Assembly: GCA_017404955.1 (NCBI GenBank)
Contig: JAFRBH010000002.1
Span: 1 to 43,123, forward strand
Direction of reading: 5' to 3'
DNA: 43,123 nt
Origin: Candidatus Saccharimonadota bacterium
GTDB taxonomy: Bacteria > Patescibacteriota > Saccharimonadia > Saccharimonadales > Saccharimonadaceae
Part shown: piece after piece, positions 1,564-13,240 of the stretch
Layout: each line of letters starts with the position of its first letter
How positions within the stretch are numbered: position 1 is the first letter of the stretch
Notes under the pieces: generated by a model
What the model was told of the DNA's origin: nothing
The model's database searches: none
What the model saw: the letters and a program-made list of their open reading frames with translations, nothing else
Position numbers and translations under genes: made by a program

Positions 1564-2094
1564 ATGGCAGATTTTAACAAAATCTTAACCCCTGGCGATT
1601 ACGAAAATGGCGAAATCAATGTTGTTATCGAAATTCCACAGGGTAGCAACCATAAAATTGAATGGGACAGAGAGAACGCTTGCTTTATGCTTGACCGCGT
1701 AGAGCCAATTGCCTTTGCCAAACCTACTAACTATGGTTTCATTCCTCAGACCATAGATGAAGACGGCGATGAACTTGATGCTCTAATTATCACCGACCAG
1801 CCACTTACCACTGGTATCTATATGACCGCCAAGGTTCTCGGTGTCATGAAATTCATCGATGATGGCGAAGTTGACGATAAGATTATCTGCGTTCCTGCTG
1901 ACGATAGAAATAATGGCGACGCTTATAATTCCCTTTCCGACTTACCAAAGCGCACTCTAGAACAAATTGAATTCCATTTCAATCACTACAAAGATCTCAA
2001 GAAACCTGGCACCACTAAGGTGGAAAAATTCGGTGACAAAGAAGAAGCCAAAGAGGTCATCAAAGCTGCTATCAACCGCTGGAATAAGCAGTAA
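1564..2094 (+). CDS. ppa: Inorganic pyrophosphatase
   Basis: A 176-residue soluble type I pyrophosphatase, the usual length of the bacterial hexameric family. It hydrolyses pyrophosphate to phosphate and pulls biosynthetic reactions such as aminoacylation and DNA/RNA synthesis forward. The signature DGDELDALI (about residues 66-74) carries the metal-binding aspartates; the EIPQGSNHKIEWD and KPTNYGFIPQT stretches form the rest of the conserved active site, and a further acidic pair lies in CVPADDRN. The gene stands alone, has its own promoter and strong Shine-Dalgarno, and its 3' end faces glyS across the long hairpin element at 2096-2281. Confidence 0.97.
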   Translation: MADFNKILTPGDYENGEINVVIEIPQGSNHKIEWDRENACFMLDRVEPIAFAKPTNYGFIPQTIDEDGDELDALIITDQPLTTGIYMTAKVLGVMKFIDDGEVDDKIICVPADDRNNGDAYNSLSDLPKRTLEQIEFHFNHYKDLKKPGTTKVEKFGDKEEAKEVIKAAINRWNKQ

Positions 2095-2095
2095 T

Positions 2096-2281
2096 TATAG
2101 CGAAAACTGAATATTATTTTTGAACCAGAACAAAATAATTCCGTCACGGGTTGAGCACCGTTTAGTCGGGCGCAAGCCTGACTGATGGAATTATTTTGTT
2201 CTGACGTGAAAAAATCTATTCAGTTTTTTTGCTATATTACTGCTTTATTTGACGTGAGAAAGCAATTCAGTTTTCGCTATA
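2096..2281. repeat. Long hairpin element 1 with conserved apical motif
   Basis: Fills the intergenic space between convergent ppa and glyS. Inner stem: 16 perfect pairs between 2127-2142 and 2187-2202. The apical part (2153-2174) holds ACCGTTTAGTCGGGC. Outer stem: 2103-2113 pairs with 2217-2227 and 2116-2121 with 2210-2215. The 5' arm 2096-2112 also pairs perfectly over 17 bases with a second 3' arm at 2265-2281. The 3' half is an imperfect tandem repeat (2203-2242 and 2251-2287), each copy starting GACGTGA and ending GCTATATTACT. The same apical motif sits in an analogous hairpin at 13084-13240. It may act as a two-way terminator, a structured RNA or a small mobile repeat; function unknown. 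Confidence 0.8.
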
Positions 2282-2290
2282 TTACTACTG

Positions 2291-13083: not shown

Positions 13084-13240
13084 GCTAGAAATAGCAAAAA
13101 CTTCTAGAATATTAAGGAGTTTTCCCAACAAAAATAAATTCTAATACCTTGCGAGTACCGTTTAGTCGGGCACAGCAAGGATTAGAGTTTATTTTTATTA
13201 GACGAAAACGACTATTCTAGAAGTTTTTACTATTTCTAGC
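13084..13240. repeat. Long hairpin element 2 with the same apical motif
   Basis: Between the convergent ends of rplU and the surface protein gene. Outer stem: 13084-13094 pairs with 13230-13240 (11 pairs), one mismatch, then 13096-13111 with 13213-13228 (16 pairs). Middle: 13119-13124 with 13204-13209. Inner stem: 13130-13145 with 13181-13196 (16 pairs, one G-T). Upper stem CCTTGC/GCAAGG (13147-13152 and 13175-13180). Apical loop 13153-13174 holds ACCGTTTAGTCGGGC, identical over these 15 bases to element 1 although the stems differ in sequence. GACG follows the inner hairpin in both. Likely a two-way terminator at least; more may be encoded. Confidence 0.8.

Follow-up and report, generated by a model that had tools for sequence, protein, structure and literature searches.

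Multi-storey hairpins at gene ends in one genus of Saccharibacteria: a probable family of gene-free mobile palindromes recognised by their fold

What is the nature of two long hairpins that bear the same 15 bases at their tips within a single stretch of 43,123 nucleotides (here called the window, i.e., the whole stretch of DNA that was analysed)? The source genome is Saccharibacteria-like and comprises 718 kb in 13 contigs (G000). One hairpin (element 1) fills the gap between ppa and glyS, and the other (element 2) is flanked by rplU and a surface-protein gene convergent to it. We consider it probable (roughly 0.6) that both belong to a family of non-autonomous, gene-free mobile palindromes that are recognised by their fold.

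Two multi-storey hairpins in the window

The 15-mer ACCGTTTAGTCGGGC occurs exactly at 2157-2171 and 13157-13171, both on the + strand, with GAGC or GAGT before it and GCA or ACA behind it, just as the initial annotation had described. When up to two mismatches were allowed, a third match was not found in the window, where shuffles expect 0.02. When folded, each site caps a multi-storey hairpin; no inverted repeats in the window are stronger than the arms of these two, and in a whole-genome fold scan the energy of element 1 lies about 4.5 SD below the mean. Its neighbours are ppa (Pfam Pyrophosphatase) and glyS (tRNA-synt_2b and HGTP_anticodon). The assignments of ppa, glyS, DUF11, and Fib_succ_major genes are backed by domain search, and other gene names are read from the sequence. 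The features of both elements are as follows.

2090..2289, + strand: element 1 (subtype B), entire palindrome, occupying the gap between the convergent genes ppa and glyS, including a tandem second 3' outer arm (folding and repeats)
2096..2112, + strand: element 1, 5' outer arm TATAGCGAAAACTGAAT (inverted repeat)
2126..2146, + strand: element 1, inner stem 5' arm, 21 pairs with 2183-2203
2147..2152, + strand: element 1, top stem 5' arm CGGGTT, pairing with AGCCTG at 2175-2180 (fold)
2153..2174, + strand: element 1, apical module GAGCACCGTTTAGTCGGGCGCA, in which the conserved internal loop GAGCA/GCGCA encloses the small hairpin CCG-TTTAGT-CGG
2183..2203, + strand: element 1, inner stem 3' arm, followed by the conserved subtype-B loop GACGTGA
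2202..2245, + strand: element 1, 3' outer arm, copy 1, with TTACTGCTT (2237-2245) complementary to the ppa 3' end
2250..2289, + strand: element 1, 3' outer arm, tandem copy 2, with ATTCAGTTTTCGCTATA complementing 2096-2112 perfectly
13084..13240, + strand: element 2 (subtype A), between rplU and the surface-protein gene (fold and inverted repeat)
13084..13111, + strand: element 2, 5' side of the outer stem, 28 nt with 96% complementarity to 13213-13240
13129..13197, + strand: element 2, covariance-model core of 69 nt, E 1e-17 to 3e-18 per genome (all covariance-model E-values rest on a shortened calibration)
13213..13240, + strand: element 2, outer stem 3' arm (inverted repeat)

Element 1 has a 2-nt bulge (AC, 2181-2182) and ends at about 2289 because its 3' outer arm stands twice in tandem (about 2202-2245 and 2250-2289). 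To the left, its outer pairing runs across the last codons and the stop of ppa (AAGCAGTAA). The core of element 2 is built from a stem, a bulged A (13146), a top stem (13147-13152/13175-13180), and an apical module (13153-13174). GACG indeed stands 3' of the inner stem in both elements. The inner stems, earlier given as 16 pairs each, actually comprise 21 + 6 pairs in element 1 and about 21-22 pairs, the bulged A, and a 6-bp top stem in element 2, and the two elements represent different structural subtypes.

Conserved fold and covariation

In an alignment of 45 distinct copies (A4), which was fitted to the covariance model, 24 of the 28 core pairs have changed on both sides and 96% of the cells pair. 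With the partner shifted by a single column, pairing drops to at most 48%, and the score for covariation, 0.78 in register, to 0.06-0.16. Double changes were also obtained in 16 of 26 pairs of a gap-free alignment built without the model (A2) and in 20 of 28 pairs of a 14-copy set, where none of 500 shuffles scored equally high. A structured RNA or a protein-recognised DNA hairpin had been proposed for element 1, and these compensatory stem changes support that proposal. What is kept by compensatory change is a hierarchical hairpin, consisting of an outer stem, an internal loop, an inner stem, a bulge, a 6-bp top stem, the GAGYA/GCRCA loop, and an apical hairpin. Family elements are about 150-250 bases long, and their stems total about 40-75 pairs.

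The constant parts are the internal loop C-GAGYA-C / G-GCRCA-G and the closing C-G of the apical stem. The rest of the apical stem compensates (CCG/CGG, CGT/ACG, CGGAA/TTCCG, CTGG/CCAG, and CGCG/CGCG). The apical motif was thus correctly seen as conserved in a few genomes, where the 15-mer is kept (four exact copies across the whole of G000, three in G014, and six in G019, some with one mismatch), but family-wide the apical stem covaries and GAGYA/GCRCA is the constant part. The idea that the conserved unit is the 15-mer together with the apical stem of three pairs was rejected, as the wider alignment points to the internal loop instead. The subtypes are told apart by their bulges and by the internal loop that comes next, and the stem length between the internal loops is nearly fixed.

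Subtype A: WAAAGAG.../...CGAC, stem between internal loops 22-24+6
Subtype B: GARCC.../...GACGYGAG, stem between internal loops 20+6
Subtype C: in G074, G111, and G112

The folding strand

At pair 29-59, the 45 copies show U.G in 29 cases, C-G in 13, U-A in one, and C.A in none, along with two other non-pairs. Isolated stem mismatches on the motif strand are more often G.U (92) than A.C (58), with p=0.007, a value that is approximate for related copies. U.G without C.A at one pair and the excess of G.U over A.C therefore indicate one defined folding strand: the motif strand is the folded strand, either as RNA or as single-stranded DNA. With regard to the flanking genes, its orientation is mixed (sense 16, antisense 13, convergent 14, divergent 5), and folding therefore does not follow host transcription. 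It was also considered whether G.U follows the transcript strand; in a larger set the difference was not significant (46 vs 32, p=0.14).

A multi-copy structured noncoding RNA or 3'-UTR motif, acting in mRNA 3'-end protection or termination and selected for that function, with its spread being secondary, would account for the very strong covariation and for the one-strand U.G and G.U excess. It would also suit copies that stand beside stop codons in place of plain terminators and recur at pnp-ftsK and upstream of tig (see below). Against such an RNA speak the orientation, which is random to the flanking genes, and the lack of a significant G.U excess on the transcribed strand. The patchy spread over the genus and the identical recent copies within one genome, both described in the following sections, argue in the same direction, and we regard this explanation as possible yet rather unlikely.

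Distribution of the family

A first covariance model (R1, from eight copies) recovered divergent members from ten genomes belonging to the source genus and no family members outside that genus among 380 genomes of the phylum (313 genera). A fold scan across G000, carried out in stretches, revealed two members that R1 had missed. With a second model (R2, from 14 copies), a search of 174 genomes of the genus delivered 124 matches in 42 genomes, at E up to 0.1, so that the further copies in related genomes foreseen in the initial annotation do exist. Neither of the outcomes that the annotation had named as refuting its proposal was observed. G000 itself contains about 11 members (ten by R2 and C6:68168 by folding alone), and 11 copies are found in G048. 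The sample comprises one genome per species, and these are metagenome-assembled genomes with breaks at repeats. As far as tested, the hairpin family belongs to one genus of Saccharibacteria.

An exact pattern scan of GTDB contigs was genuine only in G014 (RGIG2364, goat ileum) and G019 (RGIG2326, goat duodenum). A Clostridia match folds differently from the family hairpin, and four other non-Saccharibacteria genomes were set aside as probable chance matches. Matches to a 22-nt pattern (up to three mismatches, 295 genomes of the order) were isolated and had no matching multi-storey hairpin. IMG/VR yielded no matches, and blastn against phages and plasmids gave nothing convincing.

Mobility and gene neighbourhoods

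Mobility and dispersal are an addition to what was proposed initially. In G014, at least eight copies are near identical across the palindrome and stand in different gene neighbourhoods, with topA, a ROK-kinase-like gene, polA, valS, and pyrG (named from sequence) among their neighbours. Their 3' identity stops at the stem base GGTGGAGC, beyond which the sequences differ. Because these near-identical copies stand in different neighbourhoods, the element moves, and it has recently multiplied to unlinked sites. A target-site duplication or a clean empty site was not seen, since the genomes, one per species, are too divergent. Similar sites are used in divergent species, namely the pnp-ftsK gap (G000, G019) and the region upstream of tig (G019, G044), a pattern that old elements passed on by descent would show as well.

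Most copies lie near stop codons or gene 3' ends, in either orientation, i.e., there is a preference for gene 3' ends whatever the direction of transcription. The ppa-glyS gap holds only a simple terminator in G156 and G074, and relatives carry terminators at the rplU site. Like rho-independent terminators, the hairpins follow stop codons and are often situated between convergent genes. Unlike the single GC-rich stem and T run of such terminators, they are multi-storey with AT-rich stems, have a conserved internal loop, and are mobile. The initial judgement that element 1 is not a plain terminator holds.

Origin of the outer stems

The outer stem is near perfect yet mostly specific to its site. 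Four copies in G000 have a core of about 90 nt in common and three different outer stems, and their core differences are compensatory (AATAG/CTATT vs AATAAG/CTTATT; TTTC/GAAA vs TTCC/GGAA). Between G014_1 and G014_3, 86 of 89 aligned bases of the inner unit are equal (by eye), and the likeness stops at the outer stem. In several copies, the outer stem takes in the last codons of the neighbouring gene, as it does at ppa and with LLGE-stop (G000_3), KK-stop (G000_6), and KL-stop (G025). The ppa C-terminus WNKQ is found in G156 too. Coding-sequence ends pair better with their own opposite arm than with the arms of other copies (permutation, p=0.0026), an effect that stems from about ten of the 46 cases. 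The outer stem may have arisen or grown once the element had arrived, when flanking DNA was copied by fold-back (template switching), or selection for pairing may maintain it.

Gene-end position and near-perfect, site-specific outer stems that enter coding-sequence ends would also be expected if ordinary rho-independent terminators, working in both directions, had gained longer stems through quasi-palindrome template switching and had a tip conserved by chance. As a full explanation, this is contradicted by more than 100 copies with a conserved internal loop, fixed inner spacing, and covarying inner stems, by a 15-mer that is unexpected by chance, and by near-identical copies at unlinked sites, which independent terminators cannot yield. 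It is accordingly very unlikely for the elements as a whole and may fit the outer stems alone.

Comparison with known systems

Rfam has nothing above the gathering threshold at 2096-2281 or 13084-13240, and a permissive search returned generic-hairpin noise far below the thresholds. A description of the family was not found in the open-access literature, which does not prove absence. The family matches no known RNA or repeat family found in these searches and would best be compared with REP, RPE, and MITE elements, which it resembles in behaviour.

With RPE and bacterial MITEs it has in common that these are palindromic, non-autonomous mobile DNA of about 100-250 bp. RPE and MITE families conserve their sequence, stems or terminal repeats included. 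Here, in contrast, the stems are nearly free, the loops alone are conserved, and a cognate transposase was not found (Y1 was searched). As for MITE features, the G014 copies have the whole outer stem in common, the outer stems of most genomes are unrelated, and no duplication was seen.

REPs have a short stem (5-13 bp) and a GTAG or CGTC tag at one end; the GTAG type occurs with a Y1 (RAYT) transposase, and CGTC-type REPs have stems of 8-9 bp and loops of 4-5 nt without a dedicated transposase (PMC3733652). Like REPs, including the CGTC-tagged ones, the present elements are dispersed, multi-copy, gene-free palindromes downstream of genes, and complementary stem changes and GT pairs within stems are likewise known from CGTC REPs (PMC3733652). 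They differ in their size of about 40-75 pairs, arranged in several storeys, in the internal loop that is conserved, and in the absence of a Y1 transposase. Nor do they share the tag of REPs: GACG/CGTC stands beside the inner stem in subtype B and CGAC in most subtype-A copies.

For recognition by fold, the closest analogue is the integron attC site, which is recognised as a folded single strand, with structure prevailing over sequence and with a strand preference (PMC6393395, PMC3053210); in the present family, such recognition is putative. One might go further and suppose an attC-like single-stranded DNA recombination site, whose folded bottom strand is read by a tyrosine recombinase that carries neighbouring cassettes, such as the variable-region-like fragments of G014. 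The fold kept with free sequence, the strand preference, and the conserved bulges and internal loops are in line with this, as is the constant distance of about 89 nt between the hairpins of G014 and G019_4 and Fib_succ_major variable-region fragments. However, RYYYAAC/GTTRRRY core sites are absent at the stem base in the listed copies (sequences read by eye), and most copies, all those of G000 included, are single, far apart, and without such cassette arrays. Nor is there a dedicated integrase pattern: G048, with 11 copies, has one tyrosine recombinase match, whose level equals that of the match present in every genome tested. Such a recombination site is therefore improbable.

Variable-region fragments and other hairpin families

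The Fib_succ_major-type variable-region fragments (about 220 bp; RRYPLSYV...WSAT...SLRC) are scattered among housekeeping genes, often as convergent pairs or arrays, and are probably targets of diversity-generating retroelements. They were observed in G014 (L265:4366-4783, L264:153-645, L266:7837-8458, and L263:6063-6691) and in G019 (L050:68-1589 and L052:8119-8793). In G014, each hairpin copy whose 5' flank is present has a fragment at the constant distance of about 89 nt. As hairpins adjoin such fragments in G014 and at one G019 copy, the mobile unit there may exceed the hairpin. In G000, a reverse transcriptase (RVT_1) lies beside variable-region-like sequence at a contig end (C1:100230-102922), a probable diversity-generating retroelement.

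Could the hairpins then be target or guide hairpins of diversity-generating retroelements, i.e., of a reverse transcriptase and Fib_succ_major variable proteins? A reverse transcriptase is indeed present in G000, G014, and G019, and the fragments adjoin hairpins in the latter two. Its presence does not track the hairpins, though: G074 has hairpins and no reverse transcriptase match, G001, G013, G027, and G055 have the enzyme and no R1 match (G055 has one weak R2 match), and no variable region is near any G000 hairpin. We regard this explanation as very unlikely.

Opposed hairpin pairs were seen in two genomes. At L048:7767 and 7946 of G014, the two hairpins are oppositely oriented about 180 bp apart, between MurJ-like and FtsH-like genes, and a pair at C8:10335 and 10507 of G048 (L270) resembles it.

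The genus also harbours other palindromes. A second family of long intergenic hairpins has its own conserved internal loop (GGACTT.../...AAATCTGNTCTAAATCTCATT) and stands at some of the gene ends that the first family also uses. It was found at L080/L188 (L188 being the G156 pnp gap), L087, L088 (the ppa gap of G016 and G021), and L189 (the G151 pnp gap), and in G016 the ppa stop is again within the outer stem. A third family consists of GC-rich palindromes (CCAACGGG...GCGAG...GCGCGTGGCG) at C11:25471 (L176) and C6:72406 (L168) of G000, after rplU in G105 (L128), and after pnp in G112 (L192). In G000 it lies inside an apparent tatD-like frame, like Rickettsia palindromic elements, and in G112 its outer stem takes in the last pnp codons CAACAATAG. 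The intergenic stretch after pnp (L187-L215; G000 C6:68094-68264) holds different large hairpin families from species to species, as seen in several members of the genus, and resembles an insertion hotspot.

Proposed mechanism and significance

For a mobile palindrome recognised by its fold, a putative trans-acting enzyme would bind the folded single strand, be it single-stranded DNA or the element's own RNA, and would do so through the internal loops and their fixed spacing. If loops and spacing are what is read, the stems need only pair and are free to drift. Copies beside stop codons would be tolerated because a long hairpin can replace the work of a terminator there, and the hairpin may have taken over terminator function. 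Searches for Y1 transposases, reverse transcriptases, and tyrosine recombinases pointed to no mobilising enzyme. Y1 (PF01797) was above the cut-off in none of 22 genomes, with controls detected, and tyrosine recombinases, at one to three per genome, are uninformative on hairpin presence.

A broader idea, which we put forward as speculative and unlikely as it stands, is a class of mobile elements defined by fold and not by sequence. Its machinery would read internal loops set at a fixed spacing. At each site the outer stem would be formed anew, by fold-back copying from the host DNA with its gene ends, and every insertion would in this way construct a perfectly matched palindrome of its own. 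This behaviour seems to be common to several unrelated hairpin families of the genus.

As near-identical cores occur with different outer stems, one can test directly how perfect inverted repeats originate, and the stems offer a natural experiment in the evolution of long palindromes. Since assemblies break at these elements, genome reconstruction is also affected. An active mobile hairpin would moreover mean that some enzyme of these cells recognises folded DNA or RNA. Saccharibacteria have tiny genomes in which known insertion sequences seem scarce. If such gene-free hairpins are active, their presence at many gene ends would make them a principal source of change in these genomes.
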